Of a stretch of 35,532 bases of DNA, positions 2,401 to 35,532 are shown piece after piece (the first letter of the stretch is position 1; every line of letters starts with the position of its first letter). Where the stretch lies: contig VIQU02000036.1 of the NCBI GenBank assembly GCA_010206225.2, positions 4,613 through 40,144 on the forward strand. Direction: 5' to 3'. The notes under the pieces are model-generated. The model was not told where the DNA came from. It saw only the letters and a list, made by a program, of their open reading frames with translations, and did no database searches. Origin of the DNA: Lachnospiraceae bacterium MD308 (GTDB taxonomy: Bacteria > Bacillota > Clostridia > Lachnospirales > Lachnospiraceae). A program made the position numbers and the translations under genes.

Positions 2401-3886
2401 TTCGGTATTAAGGCTGATTCCAGTAATTGTCTTTTTTGCAGGAGTTATGGGAGTTGGAATATATGTACAGAGAAGATCTGCTGACGCTAAGGCGCAAAAT
2501 TTTTCAAAGGAATACTTTATCGGCGGAAGAAGTCTAGGTGGTTTTGTATTAGCAATGACATTGGTAGCGACTTATGGCTCTGTTAGTTCCTTTTTGAGTG
2601 GAGCTGGAAAAGCTTGGGAGACTGGATTTGGATGGGTATACTATGCTACTTCTAATGTTGTTGCAGCATTTCTGATTCTGGGAGTGCTTGGTAAGAAGAT
2701 GGCAGTTATAGGGCGTAAGACAGATTCCGTAACAGTAATTGACGTATTGAGGGCAAGATATAATTCTAACGGATTGTCCTATATTTGTACGGTTGCTATT
2801 TTGATATTTTTCACTACTCAGATGGTGAGCCAGTTTATTGGAGGTGCGCAACTTTTTGCAGCATGCACAGGATTTGACTATACTATTGGCCTGCTGATTT
2901 TTGCAACTGTGGTTGTAATATATACGACTATTGGAGGATTTACAGCAGTTGCTATTACAGATACTGCCTGTGCCATTGTCATGGTTATAGGAACGATTCT
3001 TCTCGGAATTGCAGTAATTCAAAGAGGGGGAGGATTGGAGGCTATTATGGAAAGCATTACTGCTCAGTCTGCTCAGGCAGTAGTTACGGGAGAAGGGATT
3101 GATCTTCTGGATCCAAGAGCCAGTGGTCAGATTCCATTCCAGCTTTATCTGTCACAGTGGCTTTTGTGTGGATTTACCACAATTGGACTTCCGCAGTCAC
3201 AAGTAAGATGTCTGGGGTACAGAGACACGAAATCTGTACATAAAGCAATGATTTATGGAACAGTGGTTGTAGGAATTATGATGATAGGTATACATCTTAT
3301 TGGTATATGGTCCAGAGGCCTCTTTACGGCCATAGATGGATCTACAGATACCGTTATTCCTGTTGTAATTGTAAATTATATGCTTCCTATTCTTGGAGGT
3401 GTAGCGATTATAGGGCCTTTGGCAGCAGCCATGTCTACCGTATCTTCTCTGCTTATTGCAGGATCCTCTGCAATCGTAAAAGACATGTACTTGCATTATA
3501 AAGCAGAAAAAAAGGAAGAACCGAATCAGAAACTGGTAGCTAAGATTTCTTTTGCAGTAACGGCAATTATGGGCATTTTAGCTGTTGTTATTGCAGTTAA
3601 TCCTCCGGATTTGATTGTATGGATTAATATGTTTGCTTTTGGTGGTTTACAAACAGTGTTCTTTTGGACAATGCTTTTTGGCCTGTTTTGGAAGACGGCT
3701 AACAAAGTGGGGGCAATAGCCAGTGTAATCGGTGGCTTAAGCTCTTATTGTATTACGATGGCATTAAATATTTCCATCGGATCTTTCCACAATATTATTA
3801 TCGGATTAGTAGTTGCTCTTGTCTGCTTTATTATTGGAAATAAATTTGGAGCTCCTATCGATGATAAATGTAGACTACCAAAATAA
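2393..3886 (+). CDS. panF: PanF-like sodium:solute symporter (SSF family)
   Basis: A 497-residue polytopic membrane protein with about 13 hydrophobic segments. It aligns by eye with E. coli PanF across its length: EYFIGGRSLGGFVLAMTL near the N-terminus, the SSF core, GLPQSQVRCLGYRDTK in the middle (PanF has GLPHTAVRCISYKDSK) and NPPDLIVWINMFAFGGLQ near the end. The family couples sodium influx to uptake of pantothenate or other organic acids. The start at 2393 has AGGAGG 7 bases upstream; an in-frame ATG 45 bases earlier lies inside yhdT and lacks a ribosome site. Pairing with an amidohydrolase instead of coenzyme A genes suggests the substrate may not be pantothenate. Confidence 0.8.
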   Translation: MSDSVLRLIPVIVFFAGVMGVGIYVQRRSADAKAQNFSKEYFIGGRSLGGFVLAMTLVATYGSVSSFLSGAGKAWETGFGWVYYATSNVVAAFLILGVLGKKMAVIGRKTDSVTVIDVLRARYNSNGLSYICTVAILIFFTTQMVSQFIGGAQLFAACTGFDYTIGLLIFATVVVIYTTIGGFTAVAITDTACAIVMVIGTILLGIAVIQRGGGLEAIMESITAQSAQAVVTGEGIDLLDPRASGQIPFQLYLSQWLLCGFTTIGLPQSQVRCLGYRDTKSVHKAMIYGTVVVGIMMIGIHLIGIWSRGLFTAIDGSTDTVIPVVIVNYMLPILGGVAIIGPLAAAMSTVSSLLIAGSSAIVKDMYLHYKAEKKEEPNQKLVAKISFAVTAIMGILAVVIAVNPPDLIVWINMFAFGGLQTVFFWTMLFGLFWKTANKVGAIASVIGGLSSYCITMALNISIGSFHNIIIGLVVALVCFIIGNKFGAPIDDKCRLPK

Positions 3887-6186: not shown

Positions 6187-6343
6187 TAAGAATATGACTA
6201 ATGTGATGTTAGCGGCAGAACTTGGAGTAAAACCACCATACATTTCAATGATTATGACAGGGGAACGTAGTGGAGCTAAGTATATTTTGAAAATATGTAC
6301 TATCCTTGATATTGACTACCGAAAGTATGAACGAACAGCGTAG
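6125..6343 (+). CDS. Ner/Cro-like HTH DNA-binding protein
   Basis: A 72-residue protein, almost entirely one XRE helix-turn-helix (GKEIKKKLIDKNMTNVMLAA...VKPPYISMIMTGER...ILKICTILDID). The ATG at 6125 is chosen over the GTG 9 bases earlier because GAAAGG lies at good distance. In Mu the Ner protein, just upstream of the transposase, tunes early transcription and repressor synthesis; the same place and size suggest the same role here. It is 13 bases from the transposase gene and so co-expressed with it. Confidence 0.7.
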   Translation: MAGRRQHLTPLGKEIKKKLIDKNMTNVMLAAELGVKPPYISMIMTGERSGAKYILKICTILDIDYRKYERTA

Positions 6344-6356
6344 GGAGGGAGAGAAA

Positions 6357-8468
6357 ATGACTCAGATAGCATATGTCACATTAGAAGAAGCGGCAGAACT
6401 TGAAGGAATAACTTATAATGCAATGCAATTACGAGGAAATCGAGGAAATGTAGAAACCAAATTAATCCCTCAGAAGTCCGGAGGAAAGCCCCTTGTACTG
6501 GTGGCAGTCAACTCTTTATCCAAGATGGCACAGAACGCCAAGGCAGAGCGTGACCGGCTGATGGAGATTGCTACGCAGCCCGCCGATCCGGATGATGGTA
6601 AAGTGCCGGAAGGGAAACAGGAGCACCCCTGGTACGTGGATGTAGACTACGAGTGGTTCATGCACCAGTACCAAAAAAAGTATTATGAAGCAGCGGAGCT
6701 TGGCAACGTGATACGGAGGTTCCTGCAGGAGAGCCGGAAGCATAAAGGCGACTTGACAGGGTTTACTGACCAGTTCGCAAGGGACAACCTGTCGAAGAGC
6801 GGCAGGACATTCCGGCGCATGGTGGAAGCCTATCAGGAGGCGGAGAACTGGGCGGCGGTGCTCGGGAAACGGGACGGGTGCAGTTATGATTATTTCAAAG
6901 TGATCGCCCTCTGCCGGAAGCCGAAGACCGTCGGGACATTCCCCTCCATCCCGGAGGACATGAAGCAGGCAGTCAAGAACATCTGGTTTGAAAAGGAATT
7001 CGCGCAGAACCGGAGGAACCGGCAGGATCTGTATGAAATATTGGAAGAAATAGCTGTCAGGATGGACTGGAAGAAGCTTCCCTCCTACCAGACAGTGAAC
7101 CGTTACATATCATGGCTCATGGAGCATGAGGGGTTAAGGAACGCCTACGATTACCAGCGGAACGGATCCCGTGAGTGGAAGAACAAAAACATGGTCAAGC
7201 GCATCCGGGACACCAAGGGGCTTAAGGTGCTGGAGATGCTGCAGGGAGATGAGCATACCTTTGACCTGTGGGTGATGTACAAGACGAAAAGCGGGAAGGA
7301 GATCCCGGTCAGACCGAAGCTGGTGGCGTGGATCGACACCCGCAGCAGGATGATCCTGGGGGATATCATCTGCCGGGACGCGGACAGCCAGGTCCTGAAA
7401 GAGAGCCTGGTCAAGCTGATGTATGTGGATCTGCCGGGGCAGGTGCCGAAGTATTTGTACATAGACAATGGAAAAGACTACACCAGCAGGGAGATGATCG
7501 GCGTTGACCGAAAGGACCGGCATAACCAGGAGGCAAAGGATCGGTTCTTTGATATGGAGTTTGACCGGGCGACCAGGGGGTTCTACCATGACATAGGGAT
7601 CCAGGATGAACATATCTCCATGCCTTATGAGCCATGGACAAAGGCACAGATCGAGCGTTCCTTCCGGACAGTCATAGAGAAGTTCTCGAAGAAATTCGCG
7701 AGTTATACCGGGACACTGACAGGTTCAAGTACAGATGCCAAGGTCAATAAGGAGATCAAACGGATGGCGGAACGCGGGGAACTTCTCACCATGGAAGAGT
7801 TCTATGGGGAATGGAAGAGATTCAAGGAAAAGTATAACAGCCGGATCCACGGTGGGTTGAAACGTGCCGGGGAAATTTATAAGACTCCGAGGGAAGTCTT
7901 TGAGAACGAAGAACGGTATCTGAAGCCAGCGCCGCCAAGGAGCTTTGCAGTGATGGCCCTCATGAAGTCCGAGAAAGCCCGCGTCAACAACGTCGGCATC
8001 CGCAGGAACGGATATTATTACATGGCAGACGAGCTGCTCCCCTATATCAACCAGGAGGTGGATATCAAGATAGACCCGTATGATGTTACGGGGATCTATG
8101 TGATCAATAAGTTTGGGCAGACGGTATGCAGGGCAATGAGCCAGGAACTCCTGCAGTTCGGCACGGTATCCGATGATACGCTCAAAGAACACCGGAAGCA
8201 GCAGAACCGGCAGCTTAGGGAAGTCCGGAAAGCCATTGAAGAGGCAACTGTTCCCTTTGACGGGGATGTGCAGGCGGCGCATAAGGGCATGGTCGGCGGA
8301 GTGAAGCTCACCATCGGGAAGGAACCGGCGAAGAACAAGGTGGTCGCCATGCCGTCAGAGGGCTTAAGGAGGCAGAAACGGCAGGTACAGGATATTGACC
8401 ATTCTGGGTACATGAAATCACAGGCGGAAAAAGCCATGGAGAAGCTGCGGCAGATCCAGGACGCATAA
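6357..8468 (+). CDS. MuA-type DDE transposase
   Basis: A 703-residue transposase (MuA is 663). An N-terminal MerR-like/winged HTH (TLEEAAELEGITYNAMQLRG) is followed by a helical DNA-binding region and the RNase H-fold catalytic core. The acidic triad is visible: D298 in QGDEHTFDLWV, D370 in YLYIDNGKDYTS and E433 in KAQIERSFRTV, matching MuA D269, D336 and E392. A C-terminal beta-rich domain and a basic tail (to contact MuB) follow. It cuts and joins the phage ends to target DNA during lysogenisation and replicative transposition. The start at 6357 has GGGAGGGAG upstream. The gene is clearly richer in G+C than the genes before it. Confidence 0.95.
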   Translation: MTQIAYVTLEEAAELEGITYNAMQLRGNRGNVETKLIPQKSGGKPLVLVAVNSLSKMAQNAKAERDRLMEIATQPADPDDGKVPEGKQEHPWYVDVDYEWFMHQYQKKYYEAAELGNVIRRFLQESRKHKGDLTGFTDQFARDNLSKSGRTFRRMVEAYQEAENWAAVLGKRDGCSYDYFKVIALCRKPKTVGTFPSIPEDMKQAVKNIWFEKEFAQNRRNRQDLYEILEEIAVRMDWKKLPSYQTVNRYISWLMEHEGLRNAYDYQRNGSREWKNKNMVKRIRDTKGLKVLEMLQGDEHTFDLWVMYKTKSGKEIPVRPKLVAWIDTRSRMILGDIICRDADSQVLKESLVKLMYVDLPGQVPKYLYIDNGKDYTSREMIGVDRKDRHNQEAKDRFFDMEFDRATRGFYHDIGIQDEHISMPYEPWTKAQIERSFRTVIEKFSKKFASYTGTLTGSSTDAKVNKEIKRMAERGELLTMEEFYGEWKRFKEKYNSRIHGGLKRAGEIYKTPREVFENEERYLKPAPPRSFAVMALMKSEKARVNNVGIRRNGYYYMADELLPYINQEVDIKIDPYDVTGIYVINKFGQTVCRAMSQELLQFGTVSDDTLKEHRKQQNRQLREVRKAIEEATVPFDGDVQAAHKGMVGGVKLTIGKEPAKNKVVAMPSEGLRRQKRQVQDIDHSGYMKSQAEKAMEKLRQIQDA

Positions 8469-8510
8469 CCAGAATAAATGACAAAAAGTAAAAGGAAAGG
8501 ACGGTACGTT

Positions 8511-9527
8511 ATGGGAAACGTAAATATGACCGCAAAGGCGGAGGGGCAGCCGACAGAACTGGCGCTCCAGGTAATTGAAAGGCTGAAAAGGATGAGGGGG
8601 AACAAGGCAGAGATCGCCATACGTTATAACTGCAGCAGGGCGATGGTCAGCCAGTACCTGAACGGGAAATACCAGAGCAACCCGGAGAAGATTGAGGGGA
8701 TCCTCAGACAGTTTCTTGCAGATAGTGAGGCTGAGTATGGGGACAGTGCTGCCGGAACAGCAGAAGGAATGCCGGAAAACAGATTAGGGCAGGCTGCTGT
8801 TACACTGACATTTCCGGAGAAGCGGGAAGCGTTTGAAAGCTCCGATTACATGTATGTGATGAGTGTGTGCCAAAGCTGCCAGGAGAACCGTGCGCTTGGG
8901 ATCATCATAGGGAAGAGCGGCTTCGGCAAGACCTACGCACTCAGGCAGTACGCAAGGCTTCAGAGGGTGGCATATCTTGAGTGCGACGGGACCATGAGCT
9001 GCAAGGACCTTGTGGAGGATATCGAGGCGAAGCTCGGCATTGGCGGCATGTCCAGCGGAACGGTCCGAAGACGGGTTAACCGGATCCGGGAGTTCTTAAA
9101 TATCAACAAAGGGTATCTTATCATCATTGACGAGGCGGACAAGCTTATTAATAAGTACACAACAGCTAAGATGGAGATCATCCGGAGTATCTTTGACCAG
9201 AGCAGCGTCGGTATTGTGATTGCCGGGGAACTGCGGCTGGAGGTGGAGATCAAAAGTTATCTGGACCGTTTTGCAAACAGGCTTGACTTTTATTACCGGA
9301 TGCATGGACTGGATACGAAGGAACTTAAACGTTACATGGAAGGCTGGGATATTACGGAGGACGCTGCAAGGGAACTGGCGGAACGTGCACTGGAGGCGAG
9401 GAACGGGTGCTTCCGCTTACTGGACAGGACGCTGAACAACGTGATCCGTATCCTGAAGGGAAGGCAGGAAACGAAAGTGACCATGGAGATCGTAAGGGAA
9501 GCTTCCAGCCTGATGATGCCGAGATAG
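8511..9527 (+). CDS. MuB-type AAA+ transposition target protein
   Basis: A 338-residue ATPase (MuB is 312). The N-terminal HTH (NKAEIAIRYNCSRAMVSQYL, residues 31-50) is followed by an AAA domain with Walker A GKSGFGKT (134-141) and Walker B YLIIIDEAD (202-210). MuB forms ATP-dependent filaments on target DNA, brings target to the MuA synaptic complex and gives target immunity. The start at 8511 is preferred because GGAAAGG is about 10 bases upstream; the ATG at 8478 has no ribosome site. It follows the transposase with no promoter visible. Confidence 0.92.
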   Translation: MGNVNMTAKAEGQPTELALQVIERLKRMRGNKAEIAIRYNCSRAMVSQYLNGKYQSNPEKIEGILRQFLADSEAEYGDSAAGTAEGMPENRLGQAAVTLTFPEKREAFESSDYMYVMSVCQSCQENRALGIIIGKSGFGKTYALRQYARLQRVAYLECDGTMSCKDLVEDIEAKLGIGGMSSGTVRRRVNRIREFLNINKGYLIIIDEADKLINKYTTAKMEIIRSIFDQSSVGIVIAGELRLEVEIKSYLDRFANRLDFYYRMHGLDTKELKRYMEGWDITEDAARELAERALEARNGCFRLLDRTLNNVIRILKGRQETKVTMEIVREASSLMMPR

Positions 9528-33574: not shown

Positions 33575-34891
33575 ATGGGCTTATTTGACAAAACGCCTAA
33601 ATATGATATTGATTTAGACAAGTTTGAAGTCAGCGAACCGAACCATGCCGAAGTATTTAATAAAAGGGTAGAAAAGCTGGTACAGTCATTGGAGTGGATG
33701 AAGGAGAATGTATTTACTAAGGACAGGGTTCTTAAGTCAACAGATATTCAAGAAGACGGGTATGCAATGGATGGAAGAATCCTGACAGAGCATTTGAAGA
33801 ATATAGTCGCTTCATTTGAAAAGAAGTTATCTGAAGGGCTTAGGAAAAAGGTAGACAGCATTGAGGGTAAAGGATTATCTGCAAATGATTTTACAGATTT
33901 ATTAAAGGATAAGCTTGATGGTATAGCAGAAAATGCTAATAAATATATACATCCAAAACATAAAAAATATGATACAGGCTTATATAAAGTGACGGTAGAT
34001 GAAGAGGGACATGTTATATCTGCAGAACCAATATCGAAAGAGGATATAACAGAACTTGGAATTCCGGGGCAGGATACCGATACTACTTATGGCTTGGTAT
34101 CTACCGAGGCGGCGGGTTTGGCACCCAGACGAACGGGGACAACAACGAAATATTTATGTGATGATGGCACATGGAGAACCCCTCCGGATACCGATACTAC
34201 TTATGATCTGGTATCTACTGAAGCAGCAGGCCTGGCTCCGAAGCGCACAGGAACCGAAACGAAATATTTGTGTGATGATGGTACATGGAAAACCCCTCCA
34301 GATACCGATACAACCTATGGAGTGGTAAGTAAAAACGCTCCTGGCTTGGTTCCAAAGTGTACAGGAACCGAAACGAAATATTTATGTGATGATGGTACGT
34401 GGAAAGTACCTCCAGACACTGACACGACTTATGAGACTGGAAATACAAAAACGGCAGGTATAGGAAAACTATATACAGAAACAGGAGATAGCACTGATGG
34501 GAGTATGACACAGAAAGCTATATCAGAAGGGTTTGCCGAGTTAAATAGGAAGTTACCATCTGATTATTATACGGAATCAAAATCAGCGAATATCTCACCG
34601 AATAATTGGGTTACCATAAATTCTGCTGTTTTAAAAAACGGAATATATGATGTAAAAGCGAATGTATCCTATTCAGTCAGTGCAGATGTTAGTATCGTAT
34701 TGTCTATTGAAACAGATCCTTACACTAATACCGTGTCAGTCAGAGGAAGCATGGGCGGTGGCGGTGGGCTATACGTCAGTAACTTGATAGATGCAAGGAA
34801 TAGGAATATAACCGTAAATGTAAAAACACTTCATGTCAATTCCTCTGTTTCCGAAGCAACCAGTATATTTTCATACATTCGATTATGCTGA
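33575..34891 (+). CDS. Tail fibre (receptor-binding), variable C-terminus
   Basis: A 438-residue fibre. Residues 1-165 include a collar/coil region. Residues about 167-280 are three 38-residue repeats (TDTTYGLVSTEAAGLAPRRT, KYLCDDGTW), followed by a degenerate fourth. Residues 323-327 (LNRKL region) fall on the inverted repeat, and residues 328-438 form the tip (SPNNWVTINSAVLKNGIYDV, GSMGGGGGLYVS, ending SYIRLC). The tip probably binds the host surface. The tip in use can be exchanged with the cassette on the other strand. AAGGAGGGC precedes the ATG. Confidence 0.85.
   Translation: MGLFDKTPKYDIDLDKFEVSEPNHAEVFNKRVEKLVQSLEWMKENVFTKDRVLKSTDIQEDGYAMDGRILTEHLKNIVASFEKKLSEGLRKKVDSIEGKGLSANDFTDLLKDKLDGIAENANKYIHPKHKKYDTGLYKVTVDEEGHVISAEPISKEDITELGIPGQDTDTTYGLVSTEAAGLAPRRTGTTTKYLCDDGTWRTPPDTDTTYDLVSTEAAGLAPKRTGTETKYLCDDGTWKTPPDTDTTYGVVSKNAPGLVPKCTGTETKYLCDDGTWKVPPDTDTTYETGNTKTAGIGKLYTETGDSTDGSMTQKAISEGFAELNRKLPSDYYTESKSANISPNNWVTINSAVLKNGIYDVKANVSYSVSADVSIVLSIETDPYTNTVSVRGSMGGGGGLYVSNLIDARNRNITVNVKTLHVNSSVSEATSIFSYIRLC
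34073..34414 (+). repeat. Three tandem 114-bp repeats in the fibre gene
   Basis: Units begin at 34073, 34187 and 34301 with a start of a fourth at 34415, each exactly 114 bp (38 codons). They are very similar in DNA, so slipped pairing could add or remove units and change fibre length in frame. Confidence 0.85.
34541..34555 (+). repeat. Left arm of fibre-tip inverted repeat
   Basis: TTAAATAGGAAGTTA, matching the right arm (35234-35248, minus strand) at 14 of 15 bases. It lies in the fibre reading frame at codons for LNRKL and is the candidate crossover site. Confidence 0.75.
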
Positions 34892-35243
34892 TAATTACTT
34901 CATAGCATAATATTCTATATATCCAATAAGATACCCAGAAGATGAGGCATAACCTATGATGTTTCCTGAACTGTCAATAGTCACACTTGCAATACCGGTT
35001 TCTGTACCATCACTAATAATAAATGACAAGGTTTGTATAGGTCTGTATCCAGCAGGCAATGTGGCTATTGTATTTCTGCCAATATTTAGTTGCTTGATCG
35101 ATAAATTTAATATCACTTTTGCACCAATTTTTTGATAAGAGGATCCTTGATGTGTGCTTCCATTTTCAGGACTGATCATAGTAACGTCATATTGTTCAGT
35201 TATATTTGCATTATTGTATGTATCAATATCCTCTAACTTCCTA
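34546..35243. other. Predicted invertible tail-fibre segment
   Basis: The two 10-bp perfect arms (TAGGAAGTTA) frame two convergent coding regions whose stops are 3 bases apart (34891 and 34895). Inversion would join the same AGG-AAG-TTA codons in frame to the other tip: 327 common residues plus 111 now, or plus 112 after inversion. Near-equal size, shared phase and an adjacent tyrosine recombinase make a phase-variation switch the best explanation. Confidence 0.8.
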
Positions 35244-35248
35244 ATTAA
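34895..35248 (-). CDS. Silent alternative tail-fibre tip cassette
   Basis: The minus strand is open from just after a TGA (35251-35249) at the inverted repeat to a stop at 34895, 117 codons, but there is no ribosome site or start at its head; the internal ATG at 35179 has none either. Past the arm it reads EDIDTYNNANITEQYDVTMI, then GAKVILNLSIKQLNIGRNTI, TLPAGYRPIQTLSF, ending IGYIEYYAMK, a receptor-binding tip of the type found in Firmicutes phage fibres. It is silent now and would be expressed after inversion onto the fibre gene. Confidence 0.78.
   Translation of the reverse strand, partial: LIRKLEDIDTYNNANITEQYDVTMISPENGSTHQGSSYQKIGAKVILNLSIKQLNIGRNTIATLPAGYRPIQTLSFIISDGTETGIASVTIDSSGNIIGYASSSGYLIGYIEYYAMK
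35234..35248 (-). repeat. Right arm of fibre-tip inverted repeat
   Basis: Reads TTAATTAGGAAGTTA on the minus strand; 14 of 15 bases match the left arm at 34541-34555. It lies 61 bases before the recombinase start. Confidence 0.75.
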
Positions 35249-35309
35249 TCAAGTGCCTGTTATTGGATTTTGCTTTTTGTTAAAATAAAGCAAAAAGGAG
35301 TTGGAAAAG

Positions 35310-35532
35310 GTGAAAGAACAGCTGGTTAACAGAGTCTTGTACTGTATGCAGGACTTGTTGAAAGATGATGAGTTGGCAGAACTCAGGAATGTGTTGCAGA
35401 ATGTTTTGTGTACATACCATGTAGAGCCGCAGCATCAGGAATTAATGATAGTAGATGATTCGTGGCAGGATGATTTAGAGGATTATTTAATGGCCAAGGC
35501 ATTGGAAGGAAAATCTCCAGCCACTGTTAAAC
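35310..35532 (+). CDS. Tyrosine recombinase, N-terminal part (cut by window edge); likely fibre invertase
   Basis: The first 74 residues run from a GTG with AAGGAG about 9 bases upstream. The N-terminal extension (ending near EPQHQELMIVDD) is followed by WQDDLEDYLMAKALEGKSPA and TVK, the start of the SAM-like core-binding domain of XerC/D-type integrases. It lacks the YARVST start of serine invertases such as Gin. The catalytic R-H-R-Y part lies beyond the window, so activity cannot be confirmed. The gene is adjacent to the inverted repeats and runs away from them; an extended -10 (TGTTAAAAT, 35278-35286) may be its promoter, and a hairpin CTTTTTG/CAAAAAG (35273-35297) overlaps its ribosome site. 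Confidence 0.8.
   Translation, partial: MKEQLVNRVLYCMQDLLKDDELAELRNVLQNVLCTYHVEPQHQELMIVDDSWQDDLEDYLMAKALEGKSPATVK

Follow-up and report, generated by a model that had tools for sequence, protein, structure and literature searches.

The window, a stretch of 35,532 nucleotides from Lachnospiraceae bacterium MD308 (C87:4613-40144 of a 4.35-Mb draft genome), ends inside a cassette that is very probably a phage tail-tip shufflon run by a Xer-like tyrosine recombinase. Its parts are ordered as fibre gene, site-tipA> <tipB-site, recombinase, site-tipC> <tipD-site. The preliminary description had seen here a tip inversion cassette in a Mu-like phage. Its reading as a switch was supported. It proved too narrow in allowing two tips only, as two further tips (C and D) lie beyond the window and bring the number to four; the recombinase also lies inside the cassette, and the arrangement is not peculiar to Mu-like phages.

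The tail-fibre gene, its tips and the sites

The fibre gene as assembled (33575-34891, + strand) encodes a full fibre of 438 aa that ends in tip A. Its constant part of 322 residues (33575..34540) matched only PHROG families of unknown function, and a tail-collar fibre gene (PF12571) and a baseplate J gene lie upstream. The fibre shaft contains three direct repeats of 114 nt (38 residues; 34072-34413), of which repeats 2 and 3 are 81% and 71% identical to repeat 1. Tip A (34547..34891, + strand), expressed in the assembled orientation, runs for 116 codons from TTA, and the silent tip B (34895..35242, - strand) for 117 codons from TTA, which by arithmetic would give a fibre of 439 aa. The two tips stand tail to tail, with their stop codons 3 bp apart.

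Tips A and B are bounded by an inverted repeat (34541-34555 and 35234-35248) in which 14 of 15 bases match, as the preliminary description had stated. With up to one mismatch, the window contains two copies of the 15-mer, where 0.01 would be expected, and none of 100 shuffles reached two. The claim that both tips read the repeat in the same phase also held: the shared frame is open for 116 and 117 codons, and the remaining two frames are shut after 0 and 1 codons. Near-equal tip lengths were likewise found; the figures of 111 and 112 residues given earlier had been counted from a later residue. We named the repeat in the fibre gene s1 (34541..34555, + strand, TTAAATAGGAAGTTA; predicted crossover core TAGGAA at 34546-34551) and its partner s2 (35234..35249, - strand, ATTAATTAGGAAGTTA; predicted crossover core at 35238-35243). 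The exact 16-mer ATTAATTAGGAAGTTA has four matches in the 4.35-Mb genome, all at the cassette, which come from s2 and s4, each present twice in the assembly. When up to two mismatches were allowed, 7 matches were found in the genome and 7 in a reversed control, so only the exact 16-mer matches carry weight.

Past the window, the contig continues with one N and then a 299-bp copy of window positions 35234-35532, followed by the whole recombinase gene, s3 with tip C, and tip D with s4. The repeat begins exactly at s2 and is 100% identical. A true duplication of these 299 bp and the recombinase start was considered and set aside, since an unmerged scaffold overlap is the simpler account of a repeat that starts at a site, follows a single N and shows no difference. 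Site s3 and tip C (L005:3322-3592, + strand) give 89 codons from the site, which reads GGAAAT instead of GGAAGT on its tip side. Tip D (116 codons, - strand) is headed by s4, the final 16 bases of C87; both lie at L005:3924-4275 and again at L006:10952-11303, near the end of contig C30, where the tip is the same over 423 identical bases. Read outward from tip D, C30 carries s4, an adenine methyltransferase gene and a Cro/C1-type gene. The core TAGGAA is identical at all four sites, and the triplet just 5' of it is AAT in s1 and ATT in s2, s3 and s4. Between tips C and D, about 330 bp (L005:3593-3923) hold no listed ORF of at least 60 aa and are perhaps a decayed tip.

As tips A and D are 95% identical, the cassette holds three very different tips rather than four. 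Of the base changes between these two (34550-34888 against L006:10962-11300), 13 are non-synonymous and 5 synonymous; weak constraint or diversifying selection could produce such a ratio. Tip B matched PHROG 3639, a minor tail protein (E 5e-10). This match and the position of the tips suggest that they are receptor binders, and each may recognise a different receptor. No relatives of tips A, B and C were found in viral_contigs (8, 40 and 3 pattern matches, respectively) or among the other 125 tips of the scanned loci described below, and tip A was present only in its own genome across the 6 genomes of the genus. The exact cassette of this phage is therefore known in one arrangement only. A single-sequence fold of the whole fibre was uninformative (pLDDT 39.5), and the best matches of tips B and C among solved structures (E 0.008 and 0.009) look unrelated.

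The prophage and its recombinase

Genome G001, of the same genus, has an undisturbed chromosome at the corresponding locus (L160), in which window position 3868 joins L006 position 8948. This places the left end of the prophage at 3868..3869 and its other end at L006:8948 on C30, so that C87 and C30 together hold one prophage of about 35.5 kb by arithmetic. The phage is Mu-like, as had been proposed: a Mu transposase, a Mu portal and a Mu F protein are all present. The transposase (Mu-transpos_C, DDE_2) and an AAA/TniB-like ATPase gene in the MuB position (6306..9527, + strand) suggest that such a phage would not need a tyrosine recombinase for integration.

The recombinase gene starts with GTG behind AAGGAG (35310..35532 in the window, + strand), about 60 bp from the site and in line with the short distance noted earlier, and continues to C87:41211 including the stop codon (whole gene at L005:2214-3215). 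Its product is a complete, Xer-like protein of 333 residues with SAM-like and catalytic domains only in Pfam (PF00589, E 2.7e-32), which bears out the tyrosine-recombinase type proposed from its N-terminus. Three families matched at E 0.001, all of them tyrosine-recombinase domains, and no resolvase-type (serine invertase) domain was among them. The R-H-R-Y residues that the preliminary description had proposed to look for in the rest of the gene are present as R191, H280, R283 and Y315. Together with K215, K218 and H306, they are invariant in 17 aligned sequences (our own and 16 relatives of 46-83% identity), and they were aligned also to the structures 4a8e and XerD 1a0p. We take R191, K215/K218, H280, R283, H306 and Y315 to be the catalytic set, with either of the hairpin lysines K215 and K218 as the possible catalytic lysine.

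The nearest solved structures are XerC-like, XerD and XerA. The best NCBIfam model, XerA_Arch (NF040815), scored 210.3 bits, below its curated cut-off of 220, and the best PHROG families are named integrase. Seven phage records matched the protein at 32-41% identity. Only 18 residues follow Y315, and there is no extra C-terminal domain of the Rci type. Residues 1-55 (P0002), ahead of the SAM-like domain, are partly conserved in the family and have no Pfam match; this N-terminal part might fill the role of the C-terminal domain of Rci.

An extended -10-like box (TGTTAAAAT; 35278..35286, + strand) lies between s2 and the ribosome-binding site, on the recombinase segment. Of 35 dereplicated loci, 24 have such a box 5' of the recombinase, against 4.0 on average and no more than 10 in 1000 dinucleotide shuffles. 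Given this position, the recombinase gene seems to carry its promoter along when it is flipped. A conserved hairpin over the ribosome-binding site, an impression gained by eye, is not claimed, as pairing exceeded that of more than 90% of shuffles in just 10 of 35 loci (3.5 expected; mean pairing 0.52 against 0.44).

In our own assembly, both breaks within the cassette fall exactly at sites. Among relatives, contig L024 starts at the last core base, and L059 has an N within a site. As a repeat of about 15 bp would not halt an assembler unless the molecules differ, these breaks suggest mixed molecules and would fit a recombinase that acts at present in this phage. A general enrichment of contig ends near the recombinase appears weak, with 7 of 50 cases against 4.4 expected (P ~0.09) and 4 of 15 against 0.68 among closer relatives. 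This test covered contigs of listed size up to 1.5 Mb, and set aside 5 matches on contigs of unlisted size (including G873 and G820, less than 1 kb from the contig start). Adapter-like sequence is found at the end of C30 (L006:11375-11406) and at the end of L056, both adjoining the cassette; these ends are presumably untrimmed adapter (Nextera-like and Illumina-like) left in public assemblies.

Cassettes of related phages

To place the cassette among its relatives, the recombinase was searched in widening taxonomic groups. Matches were found in 2 of 6 genomes of the genus at 1e-60 and in 13 of 397 of the family at 1e-80; a profile at 1e-100 gave matches in 33 of 392 genomes at order level and in 19 of 391 at class level (own genome included throughout; the latter two counts refer to recombinase matches alone). 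Loci were taken from genome_contigs (5) and viral_contigs (3 and 58). A site motif was learned from 102 stretches adjoining the recombinase in loci of at least 43% identity and scanned in 55 loci (own included, exact duplicates removed). The scan gave 161 matches, of which 24 were discarded for lack of an open frame and 6 solitary ones were set aside, and 131 sites in 38 loci were kept. These 38 loci each have at least two in-frame sites.

The layout + - [recombinase] + - was found exactly so in 23 of the 38 loci. L059 has ++ - + -, the extra site copy being the one that contains an N, and our own contig was scanned as + - [recombinase] +, since the scan overlooked s4 at the contig end, which was established separately. 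Partial layouts account for 13 loci: + - only (5), - + - (3), + - behind the recombinase only (2), - + (1), + + - (1) and + - - (1). Nine of them end with the available sequence (L025, L046, L063, L064, L072, L078, L088, L106 and L109), and the other four (L045, L076, L079 and L080) are without one site that passes the rules. The 17 loci without two in-frame sites of this motif, some of them cut short, include L047 and L084, which have the same geometry with a different site sequence, and L022, which has two sites, one of them opening into a short frame of 41 codons; in L048 and L049, no such site pair was found. Of the kept sites, 128 of 131 open into a tip of at least 60 residues in the shared frame, which was also a selection rule except behind TAA. 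The tip behind s2 in L041 is only 9 residues long, so silent tips can decay. Since every inversion between opposite sites leaves the full layout unchanged, the layout can stay constant while the tips vary.

Siphophage Dit, Tal or minor-tail genes lie upstream in 17 of the 38 loci (L020, L023, L041, L042, L044, L057, L059-L064, L066, L067, L069, L070 and L079). L045 has a distant baseplate-J match and L022, outside the 38, a clear baseplate gene; most remaining loci gave no match to the few tail-gene probes used. The tail genes that precede the cassette are thus of Mu-like phages, of other baseplate-bearing phages or of siphophages. A system specific to Mu-like phages was rejected, as Portal_Mu was present in 1 of 10 genomes with a recombinase relative, our own.

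Related prophages were compared for swapped tips, a check proposed earlier, and cassettes with inverted or moved tips were found whose ends lie at the sites. In a comparison of 12 close loci, 87 alignment ends fell inside the cassettes, and 77 of these were no more than 25 bp away from a site core (median 5.5 bp), against 8.2% expected for random positions; the pairs are not independent, and most of these ends are those of collinear blocks where differing tips begin. Four blocks are inverted (L041/L060, L060/L069, L062/L069 and L059/L106). The C/D block of L060 is the inverted A/B block of L069 at 99.3% identity, and C/D is inverted between L059 and L106 at 97.7%. L061 and L070 also show an inversion, at lower identity. 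Inversions with collinear flanks were found between L101 and L102 (361 bp, 100%) and between L082 and L084 (427 bp, 98.8%).

Tip families occupy all four places: 14 tips in 8 loci are distributed over s1 (4, two of them in L059), s2 (2), s3 (4) and s4 (4). With the fibre position taken from an upstream frame of at least 60 codons, the fibre is at s1 on the recombinase strand in 27 loci and at s4, on the opposite strand, in L040, L073 and L046. In L073, the tail-gene homologues also lie on the strand opposite the recombinase. The longest upstream frame of L072 is at s2, and seven loci were undecided. The recombinase gene itself appears in both orientations across loci. Finally, singletons make up 62 of the 128 tips, so the import of tips must play a part too.

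In each of the 38 loci, one and the same core triplet stands at every site, and 10 different triplets occur between loci (10,000 shuffles: mean 7.4 uniform loci, maximum 16). After dereplication of the recombinases at 95, 90, 80 and 70%, uniformity held in 29/29, 27/27, 24/24 and 8/8 loci (shuffle maxima 10, 8, 9 and 6). Site columns 11-14 (Y NNN) differ from locus to locus and are always the same inside one locus. Columns 15 and 16 are AA at every site, and within-locus agreement is only 0.90 of pairs for column 10 and 0.55 for column 17. Because the motif model gives preference to AA at columns 8-9 and 15-16, these columns carry no information, and the evidence for a matched core comes from columns 11-14 only. 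We therefore predict a core of 4 to 6 bp, TAGG or TAGGAA in this phage. A core uniform within loci and varied between them is the mark that strand exchange by a tyrosine recombinase leaves. The fibre-side arm is conserved across loci and the tip-side arm hardly so.

The core triplet NNN is one codon of the fibre. TAA stands where s1 has TTA at all three silent sites in L041, L062 and L069, and at some in L056, L059 and L070. One tip (NKKVECF) follows TTA in L061 and L070 and TAA in L062 and L069, which places the exchange 3' of that codon. The core is AGG here and AAA in a relative whose recombinase is 83% identical. The cassette could be a self-contained module that moves between unrelated phages, its core being a private code that changes fast between cassettes, all sites together by conversion through recombination; we hold this to be possible rather than probable. 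If true, cassettes of different phages in one cell would be kept from recombining together. Prophages L058 and L071 of IMG genome 2910649936 differ in core (GAT, AGC); against the private code, prophages L063 and L064 of IMG genome 2840399886 share the core GGC.

Competing explanations and known systems

The tail-tip shufflon would work as follows. The constant fibre part ends at s1, the tail-to-tail blocks A/B and C/D flank the recombinase, and each tip begins at a site with the shared core. The recombinase, as the presumed agent, would exchange strands in the core between two oppositely oriented sites and thereby invert the intervening DNA; directly oriented sites would not give rise to deletions. 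Inversion between s1 and s2 would swap A and B, and that between s3 and s4 would swap C and D. Inversion between s2 and s3 would flip the recombinase gene, and that between s1 and s4 would flip everything and put C/D beside the fibre. By arithmetic, inversions alone could yield 16 arrangements and four fibres of 438, 439, 411 and 438 residues. One lysogen could then release particles bearing different tips.

The recombinase might instead be a phage integrase or a host Xer protein that lies here by chance, with the repeats as relics. Its PHROG and NCBIfam annotations point that way, but the phage has its own Mu-like transposase and ATPase, the insertion site is undisturbed in G001, complete layouts place the recombinase between both tip blocks, and breakpoints fall at the sites, all of which makes such a coincidence very unlikely. 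Tips could also have been swapped by homologous recombination between phages rather than by site-specific inversion, as the many singleton tips and the allelic tips that differ between close relatives might suggest. However, the common sequence at the sites amounts to only ~15-25 bp, inverted blocks end at the cores, and the sites of a locus agree in the core but not in flanking columns 10 and 17; we regard exchange of this kind as most improbable.

A once-active shufflon that is now locked in this phage would account for the single known arrangement and for s3, which is weaker on its tip side. Against it, the recombinase frame is intact, the four cores are identical, the four tips are open, and the two assembly breaks at sites suggest mixed molecules, so that we consider a locked state unlikely. 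We therefore favour the tail-tip shufflon run by the Xer-like recombinase. As in a shufflon, one constant 5' part is followed by at least three alternative 3' parts in frame from the same site (four tips), and the sites occur in both orientations (+ - + - here), with inversions seen between relatives.

The closest known kind is the Rin shufflon of bifidobacterial prophages integrated in dnaJ2, for which inversions were seen (2018; PMC6109161). Both have a phage-encoded, Xer-like tyrosine recombinase without an arm-binding domain, short asymmetric sites, and a constant receptor-binding N-terminal part with several C-terminal variants (PMC6109161). By that description, Rin lies beside a one-sided tandem array of tips with 11-bp TTCCCTAACCC sites (PMC6109161), whereas the cassette described here has a central recombinase, tail-to-tail pairs and a TAGGAA core. 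A further difference from Rin is that the recombinase gene occurs here in either orientation, in phages whose hosts belong to the Clostridia.

The R64/IncI shufflon with Rci is similar in its tyrosine recombinase, its sites in both directions and the exchange of the C-terminus of one surface protein, and its sites also have a conserved core with only one arm conserved (PMC11852207). The asymmetry of the R64 sfx sites was proposed there to restrict Rci to inversion (PMC11852207). R64 differs in that the protein is a plasmid pilus tip adhesin, the core has 7 bp and Rci has an extra C-terminal domain (PMC11852207), which is absent here. Gin of Mu, Cin of P1 and Min of p15B also switch phage tail fibres through DNA inversion, Min with multiple sites; they are serine recombinases (PMC6109161), whereas the enzyme here is a tyrosine recombinase. 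Prophage 03 of Pseudomonas fluorescens Pf-5 has a putative integrase likened to Rci and a contractile-type tail, and the available portion of its source describes no tip cassette or inversion (PMC2647930).

In the literature searched, which lay outside most subscription papers and all preprints, a tail shufflon with a tyrosine recombinase was described for bifidophages only. What appears new here is a central recombinase found both ways, a fixed four-site geometry and a place behind several types of tail genes. A probable second, differently built type of tail shufflon is described here in phages of gut Clostridia. It supplies new pairs of invertase and site with different cores, and gives direct access to the questions of how receptor binding is varied in these phages and how a new core comes to be shared by four sites.
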